Positions 5,779 through 33,859 of a DNA stretch of 64,000 nt are shown one piece after another. Source of the stretch: Hylemonella sp. (lineage in GTDB: Bacteria; Pseudomonadota; Gammaproteobacteria; Burkholderiales; Burkholderiaceae_C). Location of the stretch: the NCBI GenBank assembly GCA_030680575.1, contig JAUXVI010000041.1:1-64000 (forward strand). Reading direction: 5' to 3'. Every line of letters begins with the position of its first letter. Positions within the stretch are counted from its first letter, which is position 1. Below the pieces are notes generated by a model, which was given only the letters and a program-made list of their open reading frames with translations, was not told the DNA's origin and did no database searches. Position numbers and translations under genes: made by a program.

Positions 5779-6567
5779 ATGATCAACTCCCTGTGGATTT
5801 CGAAAACCGGCATGGAAGCCCAGCAAATGCAGCTGGACACCATCTCCAACAACCTGGCCAATGTCTCGACCACCGGCTTCAAGCGCTCCAATGTGGCATT
5901 TGAAGATCTGATGTACCAGAACCTGCGCCAGGTCGGCTCCGCCACCTCTGAGCAGTCGCAACTGCCCACCGGCCTGCAACTCGGTACCGGTGTGCGCGTG
6001 GTCGGCACGGCCCGTCAGTTCACGCAAGGCAATGTGCAGCAGTCAAGCAACAACCTTGATGTGGCCATTCAGGGCAATGGCTTCTTCCAGGTCACCATGC
6101 CCGATGGCTCCATCGGCTACACCCGCGATGGCTCGTTCAAGGTCAACGCCCAAGGCCAGGTGGTGACCAGCAACGGCTTTGCGGTCGCCAACGGCATCAC
6201 CGTGCCAGCCAATGCCGAGAATCTGGTCATCAGTGCGGACGGCAATGTCACCGCCTCGATCAAGGAAAACGGCCGGATGGTCGAACGGCAGATCGGCACC
6301 ATCGCCCTGGCCAGCTTCATCAACCCGGCCGGCCTGGAGCCGCGCGGGCAGAACATGTACATCGAGACCGCTGCTTCGGGTCAGCCCAACACCGGCACAC
6401 CGGGCCTCAATGGCATGGGCAGCCTGATGCAAGGCTACCTGGAAACCTCCAACGTCAACGTGGTGCAGGAACTGGTGACCATGATCCAGACCCAGCGTGC
6501 CTACGAGATGAACTCGAAGGCGATCCAGACCTCTGACCAGATGCTGCAGAAACTGGGGCAATTGTGA
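5779..6567 (+). CDS. flgG: Flagellar basal-body rod protein FlgG
   Basis: [48 protein letters not shown]. Confidence 0.98.
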
Positions 6568-7262
6568 TGAACACGACGGTTTACTCCTCATTGCAACGCC
6601 TGGGCTGGGTGGTGGTGATTGCAGGCCTGTGCGCCGGCTGCGAGACCACCGCGCCCAAGGTCGACTTCGCCGAGCCGAAGCCTGCGGCCATCCCCAGCCC
6701 GTCCGCCCGGCCTGTCACCGGCAGCCTGTTCCAGACGGTCGGCTATCGCCCATCCTTCGAAGACCGGCGCGCCCGCGTGGTCGGCGACACCCTGACGGTG
6801 GTGATCGTGGAAAACGTCACGGCCAGCCAAAAGTCGACCTCCACGGCCAACCGCACCAGCAGCGCCAATTCGTCCGTTACAGCTGTCCCCGGGTTTAACT
6901 TCCCGGCCACCGCCGCTGAAAATCAGACCCGTATCGCCGGCACATCGGCCAACGACTTCTCCGGCAAGGGCGGCACGGAAAGCGCCAACACCTTCTCCGG
7001 CTCGATCACCACCACGGTGGCCGAGGTCCTGCCCAATGGACATCTGGTGGTGGTGGGGGAAAAGCAGATCGGTGTGAACCAGAACGTCGACGTGTTGCGC
7101 TTCTCCGGCACGGTCGATCCGCGCTCTGTCCTGCCGGGCAGCATCGTGAACTCCAGCCAGGTGGCCAATGTCCGCGTCGAATCCAAGGGCCGCGGTGCCC
7201 AGAACGAAGCGCAAACAGTTGGCTGGTTAATGCGGTTCTTTTTCAGCGTTTTGCCGTTCTGA
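6564..7262 (+). CDS. flgH: Flagellar L-ring lipoprotein FlgH
   Basis: Lipobox-like [31 protein letters not shown]; overlaps the flgG stop. Confidence 0.96.
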
Positions 7263-7332
7263 GCCGATACAGAATTGGATTGTCTGATTTCGTCTTTATC
7301 GGTCCATTTCGCCAATACTTGAGTCCTACGCC

Positions 7333-8475
7333 ATGAATGCCTGCACGCTTTGCCCCTCGCTGAACCGGCTCCGCCAGCTGGCCACGCTGCTGGTGGCTGC
7401 CTGCATGCTTGCGGGCGGCAGTGCCATGGCGGGCCGCATCAAGGAAATCGCCTCCATTGATGGTGTGCGCAGCAACCAGTTGACCGGGTTCGGCCTGGTC
7501 ATCGGCCTGGACGGCACCGGCGACCAGACCACCCAGATGCCCTACACCACCCAGGGCATGAACAACTACCTGCAGCAGCTCGGCATCACCCTGCCCTCGG
7601 ACGTCATTTCTCGTCTGCAATTCAAGAATGTGGCCGCCGTGCTGGTGACGGCGCAACTGCCGGCGTTTGCCCGCCCGGGCCAGATGGTCGACGTGACCGT
7701 CTCGTCCATGGGCAATGCCAAGTCGCTCAAGGGCGGCACCCTGATTTCCACCCCGCTCAAAGGCGCCGACGGTGAGATTTACGCCCTGGCGCAAGGCAGC
7801 ATGGTGGTGGCCGGTGCCGGCGCAGCCGCAGGCGGCAGCAAGGTCCAGATCAACCACCTGAGCGCCGGCCGCATTCCGGGCGGCGCCCAGATCGAGCGCG
7901 CCGTCCCTACGCCGCTGCTCGAAGGCAACAGCATCCGGCTCGGCCTGGATGCCTCCGACTTCCAGACCGCACGCCGCGTGGCCGAAGCCATCAACCGCCG
8001 TTTCGGCGACGGCATCGCCCGCGCCCTGGACGGCCGCACGGTTGACGTCTTGGCCCCGGTTGACCCCAACGCACGTATCACCTTCATCGCCGAGATGGAG
8101 GAGTTGCCGCTGGAAAACTCCATCCGTGCCGCCAAGGTGGTCATCAATTCGCGCACCGGCTCGGTGGTGCTCAACCAGGCCGTGACGCTGGGGCCCTGCG
8201 CCATTGCGCACGGCAACCTGTCGGTCACCATCACCTCCACCCCGGTTGTCAGCCAACCCGGCCCCCTGTCCGGCGGCCAGACCGTGGTAACGGAAAAAGC
8301 CAACATCCAGATCAAGCAGGAACCGGGTGTACTGATCCAGGTGCCGGCCTCGCCCCAATTGTCGGAAGTGGTGCGTTCCCTGAACGCACTGGGCGCCACG
8401 CCGCAGGACCTGCTGGCCATTTTGCAGGCCATCAAGGCGGCCGGCGCACTGAATGCGGAGCTTGAGGTGATCTGA
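7333..8475 (+). CDS. flgI: Flagellar P-ring protein FlgI
   Basis: RIKEIASIDGVRSNQLTGFGLVIGLDGTGDQ, hallmark FlgI N-terminus. Confidence 0.98.
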   Translation: MNACTLCPSLNRLRQLATLLVAACMLAGGSAMAGRIKEIASIDGVRSNQLTGFGLVIGLDGTGDQTTQMPYTTQGMNNYLQQLGITLPSDVISRLQFKNVAAVLVTAQLPAFARPGQMVDVTVSSMGNAKSLKGGTLISTPLKGADGEIYALAQGSMVVAGAGAAAGGSKVQINHLSAGRIPGGAQIERAVPTPLLEGNSIRLGLDASDFQTARRVAEAINRRFGDGIARALDGRTVDVLAPVDPNARITFIAEMEELPLENSIRAAKVVINSRTGSVVLNQAVTLGPCAIAHGNLSVTITSTPVVSQPGPLSGGQTVVTEKANIQIKQEPGVLIQVPASPQLSEVVRSLNALGATPQDLLAILQAIKAAGALNAELEVI

Positions 8476-8476
8476 C

Positions 8477-9352
8477 ATGGGTGTCGGCAACCTGACCCAC
8501 AACTCCAATGCGCTGGCGGCCGATGCGCGCTCGCTCAACAGCCTGAAACTGCAGGCCGGCCAGAACACGCCCGCCGCCATCAAGGAAGCTGCCAAGCAAT
8601 TCGAATCGCTCTTCATGCGCGAGTTGATCAAGAGCATGCGCGAGGCCACCATGAAATCCGGCATGCTGGAAAGCGCCCAGGGCGACCTCGGCACCGATCT
8701 GCTCGACCAGCAGCTGGCCGTGCAGATGTCGGGCCGTCCCGGCGGGCTGTCGGACATCATCGCCCAGCAGCTCTCGCGCCAGATGGGTGCGGCGGAGACA
8801 CAAGGACAAGGCAGTGCGCACGCTGCCGGCAAACAGGCCATCCAGCCGGCCGCCGGCCAGGGCAACGCCACGCCGACCGTCAGCCAGACCAGTTTTGTGC
8901 AACGCTTCAATGGCGTCGCCGCCAAGGTGGAACAAAGCAGCGGCATTCCCGCCAGCTTCATGATCGGCCAGGCCGGGCACGAGACCGGCTGGGGCCGGCG
9001 CGAAATCACCAACGCCGACGGCTCGACTTCGTTCAACCTGTTCGGCATCAAGGCCGGCCCGGGCTGGAAAGGCAAGGTGGCCGAGGTCACCACCACCGAA
9101 TACGTCAACGGTGTGCCGCAAAAGACCGTGGCCAAGTTCCGCGCCTACAACTCGTATGAAGAATCGTTCCGCGACTATGCCCGCCTGATTTCCGACAGCC
9201 CGCGTTACGCCCAGGTGCGCCAGCAGACCGGCTCGGTCCAGGCCTACGCCAGCGGCTTGCAGCGCGCCGGCTACGCCACCGACCCCGATTACGCCAACAA
9301 GCTGAGCCGGGCCATCAACACCACGCTGCGTCTGCAGCGCGCCACCGCCTGA
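8477..9352 (+). CDS. flgJ: Flagellar rod assembly protein / peptidoglycan hydrolase FlgJ
   Basis: Rod-binding N-terminus (AAKQFESLFMRELIKSMREATMKSGML) fused to a glucosaminidase domain (MIGQAGHETGWGRREI). Confidence 0.96.
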   Translation: MGVGNLTHNSNALAADARSLNSLKLQAGQNTPAAIKEAAKQFESLFMRELIKSMREATMKSGMLESAQGDLGTDLLDQQLAVQMSGRPGGLSDIIAQQLSRQMGAAETQGQGSAHAAGKQAIQPAAGQGNATPTVSQTSFVQRFNGVAAKVEQSSGIPASFMIGQAGHETGWGRREITNADGSTSFNLFGIKAGPGWKGKVAEVTTTEYVNGVPQKTVAKFRAYNSYEESFRDYARLISDSPRYAQVRQQTGSVQAYASGLQRAGYATDPDYANKLSRAINTTLRLQRATA

Positions 9353-9363
9353 GGGAAGAGAGC

Positions 9364-11292
9364 ATGGGCAACATCCTGAACATTGGCGCACGGTCCTTGC
9401 TGGTCAACCAGAAGATTCTTGAGACCGTCGGCAACAACATTGCCAACGTCAACACGCCGGGCTACTCGCGCCAGACCGTCATCGTCCAGAACGTGGAAGG
9501 CCAGTTCACCGGTGGCGGCTACTACGGCAACGGCGTTGACATCACCACGGTTCAGCGCAACTACAGCGACTTCCTGACCAAGCAGGCCACGCTGATGAAA
9601 TCCGTCGCCGCCAGCGACGCGACGCGTTACGACAAATTGCAGCAACTTGAGAGCGTTTTCTCCGGCGGCACCGACGGCCTGGGCGCCTCGGTCAGCGACT
9701 TGCTCAATTCGTTTTCCGACATTGTCAGCGCCCCTTCCGACCTGACGGCGCGCGCGGTGGCACTGACCAGCGCGGACGAAATGGCTGCGCGTTTCCAGAC
9801 CGCCTCCAACCAGCTCTATCAACTCCGGCTGGGCGTCTCACAAGAGCTGCAAACCAACGTCACGACCATCAACAACCTGGCCACCCAGATTGCCAAATCC
9901 AATCAGGAAATCTCGCGTGCCATGGGCAGCGGCCACCTGCCCAATGACCTGCTGGACCAACGCGACCAGTTGGTCAGCGAATTGAACAAATACATCCAGA
10001 CGACCTCGATCCCGTCCGCGGACGGCACCGTCGGCATCTTCGTGGGCGGTAGCCAGGCCCTGGTGCTCGGCACCACGGTATCGAAGCTGGAGGTGGCTCC
10101 CACCAATTACTCGGGCGATCCCAACCAGAGCCAGTTGTTGATCAATGTGGGTAGCTCCAAGTACCCGATCAATACCAGCATGCTGGGTGGCGGAGAAGTC
10201 GCGGGACTGTTGCGCTTCAAGAACGAAGACCTGGTCAATGCCGGCAACCTGCTGGGTCGCATGGCACTCGCCATCGGCACGCGCATGAACGAGCAGCAGG
10301 CCCTGGGCCTGGACCTCAACGGCAACCCCGGCACGGCCCTGTTCACGCTCACCTCCATGCCGGATGGCTATCCGGCCGACACCAACACCCCGCCGGGCAC
10401 CACCCTGAGCCTCGGTGTTCAGTCCAACCCGTCTGGCACGACCCAATTGATGGCGTCTGATTACGAGGTGACGTTCACCTCGGGCACCGCCGGCACCATC
10501 GTGCGCCTGTCGGACGGCAAAGCCACGGCGTTTGATTTCGGGGCCACCAATCCGGTCAAGATTGACGGCCTTGACATCCAGCAGAGCGCCACACCGGCAA
10601 CCGCCGGCGACCACTTCCTGCTCAAACCTTTCAGCACCGCCGCAGGGTCGATTGCCACGGCGTTTTCGTCTCCCCGCGGCTTGGCCATGGCCAGCCCGGT
10701 GACCGCCACCGCAGGGACCACCAACACCGGCACCCTGTCGGTGGGCGACCTCACGACACGCTCCGTGCCGGTGCCTCCCGCTGTCACGCTGACCTTCACC
10801 GGCACCAGCACCTACACGCGCTCCGATACCGGTGCCACGGTCCATACCTACACCCCGGGTCAGCCGATCGAATACACCTATCCGGCTGTGGCACCGCTGG
10901 CGGGCTGGTCGCTCACGCTCAAGGGAACACCACAGGTTGGTGACACCTTCAAGGTGGATACCAACCCCTATCCGGCCCTCAATGCCGGCAATGCGCAAGC
11001 GATGCTGAACCTGCGCGATGTGGCGATGTTCGACGGTGGCCCCTTGACCGACGGTTATGCCGGCCTGATGGCCGAAATCGGCATCCAGGTGCAAAGCGCG
11101 AAATCGGCCAGCACCGTTTCCGGCAATATTGCCAGCAGCATCGAGCAGCAGCGCGCCAGTGTTTCCGGCGTCAACCTGGACGAAGAGGCCGCCAAGATGC
11201 TGCAATACCAGCAGGCCTATCAGGCCTCCGGCAAGATGATGCAACTGGCCCAGAATATTTTCGACTCGCTGCTGCAGAGCCTGGGCCGTTGA
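9364..11292 (+). CDS. flgK: Flagellar hook-associated protein 1 FlgK
   Basis: ILNIGARSLLVNQKILETVGNNIANVNTPGYSRQTV; C-term NLDEEAAKMLQYQQAYQASGKMMQLAQNIFDSLLQ. Confidence 0.97.
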   Translation: MGNILNIGARSLLVNQKILETVGNNIANVNTPGYSRQTVIVQNVEGQFTGGGYYGNGVDITTVQRNYSDFLTKQATLMKSVAASDATRYDKLQQLESVFSGGTDGLGASVSDLLNSFSDIVSAPSDLTARAVALTSADEMAARFQTASNQLYQLRLGVSQELQTNVTTINNLATQIAKSNQEISRAMGSGHLPNDLLDQRDQLVSELNKYIQTTSIPSADGTVGIFVGGSQALVLGTTVSKLEVAPTNYSGDPNQSQLLINVGSSKYPINTSMLGGGEVAGLLRFKNEDLVNAGNLLGRMALAIGTRMNEQQALGLDLNGNPGTALFTLTSMPDGYPADTNTPPGTTLSLGVQSNPSGTTQLMASDYEVTFTSGTAGTIVRLSDGKATAFDFGATNPVKIDGLDIQQSATPATAGDHFLLKPFSTAAGSIATAFSSPRGLAMASPVTATAGTTNTGTLSVGDLTTRSVPVPPAVTLTFTGTSTYTRSDTGATVHTYTPGQPIEYTYPAVAPLAGWSLTLKGTPQVGDTFKVDTNPYPALNAGNAQAMLNLRDVAMFDGGPLTDGYAGLMAEIGIQVQSAKSASTVSGNIASSIEQQRASVSGVNLDEEAAKMLQYQQAYQASGKMMQLAQNIFDSLLQSLGR

Positions 11293-11317
11293 AGAAAGAC
11301 AGGACGAGGATTGAAAC

Positions 11318-12514
11318 ATGAGCATGCGACTGGGTAGCGCCAACGCCTACGACAACTCCCTGGCCAAACTGAGCAGCCATCAGGTCGGCCTGTCCGAACT
11401 GCAGGAAAAACTGACAGCCGGCAAGAAAGTGCTGCGCCCCAGCGACGACCCCACCGGCGCCGCCCAGGCCGAGCGGGCGATGACCCGGATCAGCCGCATC
11501 GAAACAGAGCAGCGCGCACTCAACGTCCAGAAAAACTCCATGGCCATGGCCGAGTCCACTTTGGGCAGCGCCACCGAAACGCTGCAGAACATCCGCGACC
11601 TGGTGGTCAGCGCCGGCAATGCCGGCTACACCAGCGTCAACCGCAGCAGCATCGCGCAGCAGATCTCCGCGCTTCGCGACCAGCTGTTCGGTTATGCCAA
11701 CAAGGCCGACAGCAACGGCGTGCCGCTGTTTGGCGGACTGGGCAGCGCCAGCGCCCCCTTTACCGATGCTGCCACCGGTGTGGAATTCAAAGGCATTGCC
11801 GGACAGAATGCCAGCTCGACCGTCGCAATCCCCAGTGCCATGGACGGCCAGGCCGTCTGGATGAATGTGCCATCCGGCAATGGCGTATTCGATGTCTCGC
11901 TCGGCGGCGCCAACACCGGCACCGCCTGGACCGACGCCGGCCAGGTCGTCAACCCGTCGGCCGTGACCGGGGACAACTACACCGTCACCTTCAACGTCGT
12001 CGCCGGCGTCACCACCTATGACGTGGTGGACACCACCACCGCCGCCACGGTCGCAACCGGCCAGCCCTACACCAGCGGCCAGAACATCCAGTTTGGCGGT
12101 ATGGCACTGCGCGTCGAAGGCGTGCCGGCCAATGGCGATACCCTGCAGGTCGCGCCCAGCAGCATCTCCAACATCTTCAAGGTGATCGACAAGGCCGTTG
12201 CCGGCATCAACAACGCCAACAACAGCAATACGCTGAGCCAGGCTTTCACCAAGGCCCTGGCCGAGCTTGATACCGGCATGAACCGTATCCAGTCGGCCCG
12301 CGGCTTGGCCGGCGACATGCTCAACCGTGCCGACAACATCGACAGCAACCAGCAGACCAAGTCCAACCAGCTCGAGACCGACCGGTCGCGCGCCGAAGAC
12401 ATGGACATGATCAAAGGCATTTCGGACTTCCAGAACCAGCAGACCGGTTACGATGCAGCGCTGAAGACCTACGCACAGGTTCAGCGCCTGTCTCTGTTCA
12501 ACTACCTGGGTTAA
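11318..12514 (+). CDS. flgL: Flagellar hook-associated protein 3 FlgL
   Basis: LTAGKKVLRPSDDPTGAAQAERAMTRISRIETEQ; flagellin-like ends; directly after flgK. Confidence 0.95.
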   Translation: MSMRLGSANAYDNSLAKLSSHQVGLSELQEKLTAGKKVLRPSDDPTGAAQAERAMTRISRIETEQRALNVQKNSMAMAESTLGSATETLQNIRDLVVSAGNAGYTSVNRSSIAQQISALRDQLFGYANKADSNGVPLFGGLGSASAPFTDAATGVEFKGIAGQNASSTVAIPSAMDGQAVWMNVPSGNGVFDVSLGGANTGTAWTDAGQVVNPSAVTGDNYTVTFNVVAGVTTYDVVDTTTAATVATGQPYTSGQNIQFGGMALRVEGVPANGDTLQVAPSSISNIFKVIDKAVAGINNANNSNTLSQAFTKALAELDTGMNRIQSARGLAGDMLNRADNIDSNQQTKSNQLETDRSRAEDMDMIKGISDFQNQQTGYDAALKTYAQVQRLSLFNYLG

Positions 12515-29087: not shown

Positions 29088-30743
29088 GTGATCCTCCATC
29101 TGTTGAGTAATGCATCTCACGCCACCCGCCCTCGCTGCCTTCACTTCACTGCGTTCATTTTCATGCCGCCTGCACAACAAATCGGTGACCTGGTCTTTCT
29201 CGTGGTCGATGACCTGGAAACCATGCGCCACATCACCATCAACCAGCTGCGCCTGCTGGGCGCAGGCAAGATCCTGGCCGCCCACAATGGCCTCGAAGGG
29301 TTGAAGCTGTTGCATCACCACCATGTGGACGTGGTGCTCGCTGACCTGAACATGCCGCTGATGGATGGCCTGGGCATGCTCAAGACCATCCGGGCTGATG
29401 CGAAGCTGCGCAAACTGCCTGTGATCATGATCACCTCGTCCGCCGAGCGCGACCGGGTGGATGAAGTCATCGCCGCCGGCGTGACCTCGCTGCTGGTCAA
29501 GCCCTACTCGCAGGCCCTGCTGGAAGCACGGGTGACACGCGCCCTGACCTGGACGCCGCCCGCACCACCCACCCGCCAACGCGCCACGTCGAAGGCCCTG
29601 CCGCCAGATGCAGCGACGCCAATGACACCGGCCACCCCCACGCAAGAGGAAGCCCGCCCGCTGCCCTGCGTGCTGGTGCTGGCAGACAACAATGCCGACT
29701 GGCTGCCTGCCTTGTCAGCGCAGGACTACCGGATCATCCGCACCACCACCGAGGCCCAGGCACTCAAGGCGGCCGCGTCAGAGCAGCACCCGGACTTGGT
29801 GGTGCTGGACTGCGCCGCCACCGGGCCGGCCCCTTATGCGCTGTTGCAGCAGCTGCGCGCCCTCCCGGGCACCGAGGAAGTGCCCGTGGTGTTGCTCGAA
29901 GACAGTGCGCACGCGCTGGATGTGACCCGCCTGGAGCCACTGGGAACCGTGGATGTCGTGGAGCGCGCCGCTGCCCCGCGCCTGCTTCGCCTGCGCCTGC
30001 GCAACCTGTTGCATGGCCTGCAGTTGCGCCACGGCCTGCAACAACACTACGACCGGCTGCTGGAAACCGCCCAGTTGCAGGAAGATGTGGAACACATCAT
30101 CCGCCACGACATCAAGTCCCCCCTGTCCGGCGTGGTGGAGCAGCTGCAAGGCCTGCTGCAGGACCGCGACCTCACCCACCGCCAGCTGGCCACGCTGCGT
30201 GCCATCGAACAGGGCAGCCTGCACGCGATGAACCTCATCAACCTCTCGTCCGAGCTGTTCAAGATCGAGACCGGCCGCTTTGTGCTGGACTCCAAACCGG
30301 TCCCCATCGTCGACCTGCTGCGCCGCATTGCCGACATCGACCGCGTGAGTTACGCCGACAAACGCCTCACCGTGGCCGTGCTGGCCGACGACACCCCGGG
30401 ACGCCCCGCTCTGTTGGCACGCGGCGACGCCACGCTCTGCTACTCCATCTTCGAAAACTTGCTGCGCAATGCCTGCGAAGCCTCGCCGGCCGGCGCACGC
30501 GTCGAGATCGCCGTGCAGGAACAGGACAAGTTACGCATTGAAATCCGCAACCCCGGCGCCGTCCCGCCCGCGCTGCGTGAACATTTCTTCGACCGCCTCG
30601 AACCCGGCCAGGAGGGCAAAACAGGCCTGGGCATCTACTCGGCACGGGTACTGGCCCGCGCCCAGGGTGGGGATGTGGAACTGGTCGTATCGGATGCAAC
30701 GGACAGCACGACGTTGATCATCAGCTTACCGGCGTTCCGCTGA
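29088..30743 (+). CDS. Receiver-receiver-histidine kinase protein
   Basis: Receiver VDVVLADLNMPLMDG; second receiver-like region VVLDCAATG; HIIRHDIKSPLSG; HATPase GKTGLGIYSARVLARAQGG. Start may be 29163. Confidence 0.85.
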   Translation: MILHLLSNASHATRPRCLHFTAFIFMPPAQQIGDLVFLVVDDLETMRHITINQLRLLGAGKILAAHNGLEGLKLLHHHHVDVVLADLNMPLMDGLGMLKTIRADAKLRKLPVIMITSSAERDRVDEVIAAGVTSLLVKPYSQALLEARVTRALTWTPPAPPTRQRATSKALPPDAATPMTPATPTQEEARPLPCVLVLADNNADWLPALSAQDYRIIRTTTEAQALKAAASEQHPDLVVLDCAATGPAPYALLQQLRALPGTEEVPVVLLEDSAHALDVTRLEPLGTVDVVERAAAPRLLRLRLRNLLHGLQLRHGLQQHYDRLLETAQLQEDVEHIIRHDIKSPLSGVVEQLQGLLQDRDLTHRQLATLRAIEQGSLHAMNLINLSSELFKIETGRFVLDSKPVPIVDLLRRIADIDRVSYADKRLTVAVLADDTPGRPALLARGDATLCYSIFENLLRNACEASPAGARVEIAVQEQDKLRIEIRNPGAVPPALREHFFDRLEPGQEGKTGLGIYSARVLARAQGGDVELVVSDATDSTTLIISLPAFR

Positions 30744-30981
30744 ATCGCCTCAGGACTTGGTGATGGAGAGCAACGACTTCACAAAACGGAATTGGCGCAG
30801 AGGGCCTTATTGGGGAGACCTAGAAGCACCGAAACGTTGACTGGTTTCGGCCAGGAGCAGACATCCAAGAAGATGCCCAAAAGCGGTCTTTGCCCCCCAC
30901 GTTTATGGGATGCCACTACGACAAATATCTTGCTATTCTTCAAGTATTTAAGCAACACCCGGTTGGATCCGAGTTAGCACA

Positions 30982-31206
30982 ATGAAGATGCCTGTCGCCA
31001 TATATGTTTGCTATGTACTTTTTGCTGTGCATACAGGAATTTATTGGTACAACCGAACCCACGGTAAGTCGGCACAATTTGGGGTCTCTCGAGTCTTCCA
31101 GGATAGTTCGAATGAATTCAAGATGATCGCCGATCTCTGTGTTGTCATCTCCTTTTTATTTCTTACGGGCGCCGTTCTCTATCGAAGTTTTTTTGATAGC
31201 TGGTAA
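30982..31206 (+). CDS. Hypothetical small membrane protein (74 aa)
   Basis: Hydrophobic ends, low-GC codon usage unlike neighbours. Confidence 0.5.
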   Translation: MKMPVAIYVCYVLFAVHTGIYWYNRTHGKSAQFGVSRVFQDSSNEFKMIADLCVVISFLFLTGAVLYRSFFDSW

Positions 31207-31418
31207 TCAGGTTCAGCGGGGGCGTCCATCACATTGCTTGCCCAAGCTGGCTACTTCCGCTTTGGGCACGATGAGGTTCCTGGCAACTTCCGGCCAGAAG
31301 CTGTCATCTAAGAATCAATCTGAAAGTGGTCGCTCATCCCCCGTTTTGGGGATGGCCCGTTGCAAGCGCCAGGCTAGACTGTTTCACCGCATAGATACTC
31401 GTTAAGTGGCAGAAAGAA

Positions 31419-31850
31419 ATGAAGCGCGCTTGGAAGGTCGTTAAATGGATCGGCATAGGGGGCACATCACTCGTAGCCATACTCTTCGCTGTCGTCTACT
31501 TCAAACTTGACTCGGCATGCGGGAACAATGTGCTCGCAGAGGCAGCATCGCCAGATGGGAAATTTCAAGCCGTCGTGTTCGAGAGAGATTGCGGTGCAAC
31601 TACAGGCTTCAGCACCCAAGTCTCCGTTCTCGCGCGGTCATCAAATTTGGGAAATAAAACAGGCAACGTCTTTGTCGCGGATACAGGCCACGGAGCGGCG
31701 CCATCCGGACCAAGGGGCAGCCCTGTTGTGAATGTGCAATGGCGCTCACCAAACTTGCTATCTATATCGCACCATCCTGCGGCTAGAGTATTTCTGGCAA
31801 AGCATGATGCGTACTCAATTCAAGTTCAGTATGAGCATGTGTCACAGTAA
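31419..31850 (+). CDS. Hypothetical membrane-anchored protein (143 aa)
   Basis: One TM then ASPDGKFQAVVFERDCGATTGFSTQVSVLARSS; stop lies 4 nt before the attC-like hairpin. Confidence 0.65.
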   Translation: MKRAWKVVKWIGIGGTSLVAILFAVVYFKLDSACGNNVLAEAASPDGKFQAVVFERDCGATTGFSTQVSVLARSSNLGNKTGNVFVADTGHGAAPSGPRGSPVVNVQWRSPNLLSISHHPAARVFLAKHDAYSIQVQYEHVSQ

Positions 31851-31854
31851 AAAT

Positions 31855-31918
31855 GACACCTAAAATTTCCTTCCAGCGGACTTGCTGCACAAGCCGTTGA
31901 AGTCAGGCGTTGAATGTC
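31855..31918 (+). other. Putative integron attC-like recombination site
   Basis: gacACCTAAAattt...gcggActtg-ctgca-caag-ccgt...gcGTTGAATgtc: imperfect inverted repeat, GTTRRRY right core, 6/7 left core, one unpaired A. Confidence 0.5.
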
Positions 31919-31987
31919 TGCTTTTGCAGACCGGCCACTTCCGCTTTGGGTCGATATCAGCCTCTTGAACGACTGGTACTCGTCAAG

Positions 31988-33580
31988 CTAGTTTGCGTTA
32001 AACCAGTCCGTCGGCAACACCACGGCCCAATCCACCGTCTGGCTGGTATCCACCTCCACCGCACAGGCCCGCTCTTCACCCGTCAACGGTTCGCGCGCCT
32101 TGAGTTGCCCCTCCAGCACCGCCACATCCGCCTCTGAAGGATCGTTCCCTTTCGCTGCGCGCTGCAGCACACGCTGGTGCAACACGTCCACCGGCGCGTC
32201 CAGCGCCAGGATGCGGCAGGGCACACCGAGTTCTTGCGCCAGCGTCATGAAGATCTGGCGCTGCGCCACCTTGAGGCAGGTGGCGTCCACCAACACCGGC
32301 AAGCCGGCGGTCAACACAGCGTGGGCCACCTCGCGCAGGCGTGCGTAGGTGCGCTGGCTGGCGTCGGGTGTGTAGATGCCGCCGGGCACCACGTTCGCAC
32401 TTTTAGCCAAGGCGGGCAGACCGAACAAGCGCTTGCGCTCCACGTCCGCCTTCACACGCACGATGCCCAGCCGTTCGATCAGCCGCTGGCTATGCCTGCT
32501 CTTGCCGGAGCCGGAGACACCACTGACGAGCCACAGCGCCAGCGAACGTGGCTTGATCAAGTCAGCCGCCAGCTGCAGGTAACGCACCACCTCCTGCTGC
32601 GCGGCCGCTTGCGCGTCAGCCTGCCCCTGCAGTTGCGCCCAGCGCAGCGCGGCCACCTTGGCGCGCACCATGGCGCGGTAGCACTGGTAGTAGGGCAGCA
32701 GGCGCAGCGCGCTGTAGTCGCCGGTCCGCTCCAGGTAGGCGTTGAGCAGGCGCCACGCATAGTCGGCCCGGCCGTGGGCCTGCAGGTCCATCAGCACAAA
32801 GGCGAGATCGGCCAGCACGTCGGTCCAGCGGAAGGCGGGGTTGAACTCGATGGCGTCGAACAGTTGCGGTGTGTTGTCGATCAGCACCAGGTTGTTGAGG
32901 TGCAGATCGCCATGGCATTCGCGCACCCAGCCCTGCGTGCGGCGCTGTGCCATCAGCGCGGTCAGCTGCTCACCCTGCTGCGTGCTCCAGGTTTGCACCG
33001 CCTGCAGCGTGGTGGTCAGCGCACGATCGGCGACAGCATCCACCACCGCCGACACATCGGGGAAGTTGTGCGCCACCGCCTCACGCATGGCTTCGGCTTG
33101 GCCCCAGGGGCTGTCGGCGCCGGCCACGGCGGCACTGGCATGGAACGTGGCGATGTGGTGGGCTAGCTGATCAATGTGTGCCGGCAGCAGCTGGCCCTGC
33201 GCCGCCAGATGGCTCAGCAGGCCGTCTTGCGCAAAGCGGCGCATGTGCACGGCCCACTCCAGCACCGGCATGCCCTCCTCCAGCGCTTGCAGCGGCACGA
33301 GACGCGGCGCCTGCAGCGTTCCGGTAACGGCCACCACATCGAGGTAGATGCCGGGCGCGGTACGGCGGTTAATGCGCAGCTCTTCCTCGCAGGCAGCGCG
33401 GCGCAACGCCAGGGTGCTGTAGTCCAGAAAGTCCAGCGCCAGCGGCTTCTTGAACTTGTAGACGTGCTCGCCGGCCAGCAGCACCCAGGAGATGTGCGTT
33501 TCGATGCACTCGATGCCCTGCACCGCATGCGGGAAGGCGGCGGGCGTTTGCTGCAAGAAGGCAATGAGTTGGGCCGGCAT
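31988..33580 (-). CDS. Bifunctional aminoglycoside phosphotransferase-like / AAA ATP-binding protein
   Basis: HISWVLLAGEHVYKFKKPLALDFLDY, ECHGDLHLNNLVLI, and C-terminal Walker A VSGVSGSGKSRHSQRL. Start moved to 33580; the ORF extension to 33790 is repeat-derived. Confidence 0.88.
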   Translation of the reverse strand: MPAQLIAFLQQTPAAFPHAVQGIECIETHISWVLLAGEHVYKFKKPLALDFLDYSTLALRRAACEEELRINRRTAPGIYLDVVAVTGTLQAPRLVPLQALEEGMPVLEWAVHMRRFAQDGLLSHLAAQGQLLPAHIDQLAHHIATFHASAAVAGADSPWGQAEAMREAVAHNFPDVSAVVDAVADRALTTTLQAVQTWSTQQGEQLTALMAQRRTQGWVRECHGDLHLNNLVLIDNTPQLFDAIEFNPAFRWTDVLADLAFVLMDLQAHGRADYAWRLLNAYLERTGDYSALRLLPYYQCYRAMVRAKVAALRWAQLQGQADAQAAAQQEVVRYLQLAADLIKPRSLALWLVSGVSGSGKSRHSQRLIERLGIVRVKADVERKRLFGLPALAKSANVVPGGIYTPDASQRTYARLREVAHAVLTAGLPVLVDATCLKVAQRQIFMTLAQELGVPCRILALDAPVDVLHQRVLQRAAKGNDPSEADVAVLEGQLKAREPLTGEERACAVEVDTSQTVDWAVVLPTDWFNAN

Positions 33581-33720
33581 GCTCGAAAGAATGGGTTGCA
33601 CTGCGAATGAACTCAGATGGTAGCCGGGTCGCCGCCGTCGCCGCATAACCTGCTGTGCAGCAGCCGCCATGCCCGGAACACGGCCGACACACACCGCTTC
33701 ACCAGCCAGTCTAATTGCCC

Positions 33721-33781
33721 CGAGTGCTCCTGTTTTGATAGCTGATTGCTCATATTCCATAAGGCCTGGGGCCACTTTTTT
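33721..33781 (+). repeat. Interspersed intergenic repeat copy B
   Basis: cgagtgctcctgttttgatagctgattgctcatattccataaggcctggggccactttttt. Confidence 0.75.
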
Positions 33782-33859
33782 ATCAGGCATCAGAACACAC
33801 CGCGATGAAGCACCTGATCCCGGCGAAGTGAATCCGTTGCGGCCTAAAGACGTCAGGTG

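Follow-up and report, generated by a model that had tools for sequence, protein, structure and literature searches.

A probable integron cassette in a recurring, integrase-less island type of Hylemonella sp.

The window, a 64,000-nt stretch of a Hylemonella sp. contig, holds an attC site that closes a small cassette gene, and both lie between two conserved elements, LE and E, whose arrangement recurs at other loci of the genus. We consider it highly probable (about 0.82) that this is a genuine, worn attC of a 508-nt cassette with one ORF in an integrase-less LE/E island, that the cassette was joined there by an integron integrase (IntI) acting in trans or lost since, and that it is now fixed and decaying; we take the site for a fossil platform with a single cassette. 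Solitary attC sites are a familiar curiosity, usually put down to a broken integron or a stray insertion at an attG site. The lone cassette described here is one instance of an architecture that recurs with fixed ends, at several places per genome, in species in which no integrase was found. This recurring LE/E platform and the variable chromosomal spot in which it lies go beyond the initial annotation of this DNA, which had proposed an isolated attC-like site directly after a small ORF.

The attC lies at 31858-31915 on the plus strand and was recognised by two covariance models, R1 and R3. Its right core R' (GTTGAAT, 31909-31915) fits GTTRRRY at 7 of 7 positions, and its left core R'' (ACCTAAA, 31858-31864) fits RYYYAAC at 6 of 7, deviating at the last base, where both models also mark the pair as non-standard. 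L'' is CCAGCGGAC with a bulged A and L' is CCGTTG; in the inner stem GCGG-A-CTTG pairs with CAAGCCGT, leaving the single A bulged. The initial annotation had described the segment in the same terms, with these two cores and an inner stem with one bulge, and its reading of the sequence stands. The GAC/GTC pairs at 31855-57 and 31916-18 are additional outer pairs beyond the limits of the attC, which starts 7 nt 3' of the stop codon (31848-31850) of the preceding gene, ORF2.

Model R1 was built from 21 attC sites of other loci, mostly loci of ORF2 relatives in other taxa, with two sites from an integron of the same genus (genome G015); for training, the loops were cut back to 58 nt, which is also the candidate's length. 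Model R3, built from attC sites of the same genus and trimmed differently, agrees with it. Both training sets exclude the candidate, and the whole window was searched with filters off. With R1 the candidate was the top match in the window at 28.5 bits (E 7.6e-5, full length and gap-free; runner-up 13.4 bits), and with R3 it was the top match at 27.0 bits (E 9e-4; runner-up 11.5 bits), all of these E-values deriving from short calibrations. The covariance search that the initial annotation had suggested as a check was thus positive with two models, both of which place the candidate 15 bits over anything else in the window. In 481 kb of other loci every R1 match above 15 bits was on the plus strand, which is the orientation of the ORF2 relatives, and nearly all of these matches fell within cassette-array loci. 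The candidate is the sole attC match in its own draft genome at E<=0.05, and it resembles the attC of the first cassette of G015, which had the best score of 21 for the right half and the joint best for the left half. Single-strand DNA folding gave z-scores against shuffles of -1.0 for the top strand and -0.3 for the bottom strand; the bottom-strand fold contained the expected inner stem, with a stability not above that of shuffles, and for every 64 kb of shuffled sequence a scan for hairpins with cores found several sites as good as this one or better. These structure-only tests (fold energy and hairpin scan) could not tell the site from chance and were discarded as evidence. The attC resemblance is well above chance by the covariance models and not by structure alone. 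There was no Rfam match at E<=1 for LE, attC or E.

ORF2 (31419-31850, plus strand) is the cassette gene and encodes a small membrane-anchored protein of 143 aa with an N-terminal membrane segment. It is a distant relative of DUF5412, its match to Pfam PF17428 (5.5e-5) being just under the cut-off. The motif GTTAAGT ahead of ORF2 (31401-31407, plus strand) fits GTTRRRY and, from cassette anatomy, is taken as the left junction; the cassette therefore spans 31402-31909, or 508 nt, and, as in a gene cassette, a single ORF is bounded by a GTTRRRY junction on one side and by its own attC on the other. A strict peptide scan for relatives of ORF2 found none, and relatives surfaced only when an alignment of three of them was used as the query, which found 116 encoding loci, 80 of which were kept. 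Relatives residing in attC-bounded cassettes were found in a gammaproteobacterial MAG (L057), Nitrosomonas (L058), Steroidobacter (L065), Burkholderiales (L069), Geomobilimonas (L072) and Comamonas denitrificans (L132).

A search for intI elsewhere in the genome, also suggested in the initial annotation, gave nothing above the TIGR02249 cut-off (best match 80 bits, cut-off 265) in an assembly that is 93% complete in 58 contigs, where an intI may lie on a missing contig. The matches below the cut-off had the pattern expected for XerC/XerD. With no intI over the cut-off in the genome and one attC (E<=0.05), the site is a SALIN, as a single attC without intI is called in the usage of PMC12690207. 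The proposal that the ORF and the attC form a single integrated or CALIN-type cassette is supported by the covariance matches, the lack of IntI, a gap at this position in the related genome G182 and the ORF2 relatives in cassettes. Among the 19 members of the genus searched, a full IntI with adjoining attC sites was present in one, G015 (locus L038). A short fragment matching the IntI model in G007 (G007:C1:3181633-3181749, model positions 277-315, with one stop) may be what is left of an integron since lost.

The description of the site as isolated holds for attC sites only, since LE and E flank the candidate: it is the sole attC match of the genome at E<=0.05, but it is accompanied by conserved elements on both sides and by a second LE and a small ORF upstream. 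LE2 (31291-31403, plus strand) was defined by an alignment of 20 copies and by a match to the window-free LE HMM at 31291-31365 (E 8.6e-13). The 20 aligned copies have about 110 nt in common, and the first part of LE, with which LE2 opens, is an inverted relative of E. Element E (31909-31965, plus strand) is palindromic, about 57 nt long, overlaps the R' core of the attC and matched its window-free HMM with E 3.1e-6. Its consensus is GTTGARCGTCTGCTTTC-N~8-TGACCGTCCGCTATGGGTCGAAAGC, and the copy in the window has 95% identity over 44 nt to the end of the cassette array of G009. The CTTCCGCTTTGGG repeat was considered as a common genomic repeat of the family and rejected as such, being part of element E; the pattern with <=2 mismatches was found in 5 of 251 genomes, and 5 of 26 genomes had a single copy each of a gapped pattern. 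Plasmid searches with E gave chance-level matches only. A second E in the genome of the window, at 3502-3558 of L237 (G000:C12:44501-44557), comes after the stop of an ORF and what may be a decayed attC, and no LE was detected near it.

Farther upstream in the window is LE1 (30847-30964, plus strand), an upstream unit that matched the window-free HMM at 30847-30919 (E 2.4e-8) and had no counterpart in the reversed window. GTTGGAT at 30962-30968 (plus strand), 13 nt before ORF1, is a GTTRRRY core, not significant alone, that might mark a cassette start. ORF1 itself (30982-31206, plus strand) encodes 74 aa, belongs to no family, and has neither a Pfam match nor a plasmid relative; no attC was recognised after it. 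A tentative partial direct copy of E at 31235-31266 (plus strand), with 78% identity to 31919-31950, was missed by the window-free E model. Lying between LE1 and the partial E copy and with GTTGGAT upstream, ORF1 is possibly a second cassette with a decayed attC.

The window-free LE HMM was made from 17 islands of other genomes. In the reversed window there was no LE match below E 3 and the best E-element match was 0.007, and in 462 kb from other taxa the best match with the LE and E models was 0.006. The one hint of LE outside the genus is a weak match (E 0.006) at 2111-2155 of L062, a Sulfuritalea MAG, about 800 nt upstream of an ORF2 relative. Scans for sigma-70 promoters and terminators gave nothing above shuffles; a conserved TAGAAT-like motif is the basis on which LE may perhaps have a promoter role, to which the promoter scan lends no backing.

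The island lies between a response regulator/histidine kinase gene on the left (29088-30743, plus strand; Pfam Response_reg 4e-29, HATPase_c 2e-11) and, on the right, an AAA_33/zeta-toxin-like kinase gene with a phosphotransferase-like N-terminal part (31988-33790, minus strand; Pfam AAA_33 4e-36). The left gene has 87% identity to its counterparts in G002 and G182 up to the gene end, and the right gene is common to G002, G180 and G182. The spacing between the two genes is about 80 nt in G182 versus 1.26 kb in the window, an insert of about 1.18 kb, which is more than one cassette. The cassette-size gap that the initial annotation had suggested looking for in relatives is in this way borne out in part: G182 is without the insert, but the difference does not match a cassette exactly, as LE/E elements and ORF1 are part of the insert too. 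A precise empty site of one-cassette length was not found, as G002 and G180 hold other inserts and G182 is without the whole insert. In G002 a PD-T7-1 defence gene (PADLOC 1e-177) lies between both flanking genes, and in G180 Wadjet JetD and an SMC-like gene adjoin the same AAA kinase gene. With the spot empty in G182 and defence genes in G002 and G180, the gap between the histidine kinase and AAA kinase genes (30743-31988; L035, L176 and L177) is therefore a variable spot that is used by defence genes.

Eighteen further islands of the genus share the arrangement of LE, one or more ORFs and E, a single genome holding as many as five of them (G003), and an LE model made from three copies matched in most islands. 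Downstream of LE and on the same strand, never upstream, is where E was found in 18 of 18 islands besides the window; the islands were located via E or attC, a selection that in part accounts for E being present in them but not for its order and strand. The islands measure 0.7-5.2 kb and have a GC content of 0.49-0.56 against 0.59-0.69 in their flanks (0.52 against 0.63 for the island in the window). They hold one to eight ORFs in the LE-to-E direction, counting the ORFs of that strand, and contained no match to the IntI of G015. At their outer ends, LE and E form an imperfect inverted repeat (TCGGCCAGAAGCGGAC and TCGACCCATAGCGGAC), which 19 islands share. No 4-9 nt k-mer exceeded permutation as a target-site duplication at the islands, the ends of which are not fixed to the base.

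The offset at which element E adjoins attC in the window is also found in G007, G003, G002, G018 and G009, and in copies outside the model building (L228, L229, L236 and L209, and weakly L225 and L227). The internal attC sites of ordinary arrays are without E. Copies of E found by the model numbered 13 in G003, 12 in G007, 9 in G006, 6 in G002, 5 in G018 and 2 in the genome of the window, counted at E<=0.5, where the weakest may be chance matches. Several cassettes occur in the islands of L175, L228 and L225. The last of these (G003:C1:450000-464000, positions 6511-11750) is a 5.2-kb island with an LE, eight ORFs and six copies of E, and weak or decayed attC sites precede several of the E copies; searches for attC would overlook this cassette array. 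In some arrays, L225 among them, decayed left halves of attC come before each E. An attI-like sequence follows LE in G182 (L209) and resembles the attI beside the intI of G015.

Four other explanations of the site were weighed. That its attC likeness is accidental, the product of a hairpin that happens to follow an ordinary small gene, would agree with the fold z-score of -1.0 and with the number of equal hairpins in shuffled sequence; the 15-bit lead in models of sequence plus structure, the position against E exactly as at other attC sites of the genus, and the carriage of the ORF2 gene family in cassettes elsewhere all argue against it, and the covariance searches largely refute this reading, which we regard as very improbable. 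An IntI might also have put a single cassette at a random attG without any special platform. Insertion at attG sites is an established way for cassettes to come to lie outside integrons (Loot et al. 2024, cited in PMC12690207 and PMC12444791), and PMC12444791 describes attG insertions as broadly spread over many loci. The cassette in the window resembles such attC x attG insertions in lying outside an integron with G^TT junctions, and its one attC and lack of an integrase would suit this route. It differs from them in that the same element adjoins attC at many loci; a random target would leave unexplained why one and the same LE stands on the left, and one and the same E at the attC, at many loci in several species. 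The LE-E architecture of 18 of 18 islands goes part of the way towards refuting a random attG insertion, which we think unlikely. Because LE recurs too, a variant in which E served as one random attG target was rejected.

Somewhat less doubtful, and about equally so, are the two remaining explanations. The island might be a remnant of one broken-up ancestral chromosomal integron, with LE as the old attI or promoter end and E as the old array end. The attI-like sequence after LE in G182, which resembles the attI of G015, and the several cassettes of some islands would agree with this; yet up to five distant two-ended islands in G003 are hard to derive from one array, and neither LE nor E was detected at or near the G015 integron. 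Compared with the island of the window, the chromosomal integron of G015 has a similar attC and, unlike it, a complete integrase, and its attI-like sequence is shared by some islands. The islands might alternatively be MITE-like units, with LE and E as terminal inverted repeats, a transposase supplied in trans and cassettes as cargo. This would fit the dispersed, multi-copy occurrence and the imperfect inverted repeats at the outer ends, and Acinetobacter has class 1 integrons flanked by MITEs, with intI1 lying between identical MITEs (review PMC10969869). The islands share with those integrons the inverted-repeat ends around cassettes; here, in contrast, an integrase is lacking, LE is unlike E except at the outer ends, and no duplication of the target was observed. 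The recurrence of E within arrays (L225 and L228) and the lack of an identified transposase also speak against MITE-like units.

The preferred reading, a fossil single-cassette platform, would have IntI, in trans or since lost, joining the cassette at G^TT between LE and E by way of the folded attC bottom strand, with LE supplying an attI-like acceptor and perhaps a promoter. Because the genome has no integrase and R'' and the outer stem carry base changes, the cassette is probably now fixed and decaying and the site inert. The window matches the SALIN/CALIN concept in having a real attC after a cassette ORF in a genome without intI, and departs from its definition in having conserved LE and E on both sides that are common to many loci of the genus. 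In the open-licence literature we came across no account of a cassette platform that lacks an integrase and has, at many loci of one genus, conserved ends that differ from each other. If the LE/E ends define a mobile or acceptor unit, this would account for cassettes becoming established outside integrons, and LE and E would serve as searchable markers for islands with attC sites decayed beyond recognition; the architecture would also predict where an integrase must act. The islands may transpose as units. It is tempting to speculate, with less than even confidence, that the genus carries a dispersed family of integrase-less cassette platforms with conserved inverted-repeat ends, LE having an attI-like acceptor and promoter and E lying at the attC end, and that these platforms move or multiply as units, are filled by an integron integrase in trans and thereby scatter cassettes over the chromosome, including into defence hotspots.

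Attendant features were seen at the attI-like sequences of the genus, which were noted in L038 (near 10427), L209 (near 318), L139, L140, L144, L146, L150, L187 and L234, several of them in genomes without IntI. Ahead of most of them stand GGGAGG and a short ATG frame, which call to mind the small leader ORF that class 1 integrons have in attI1.
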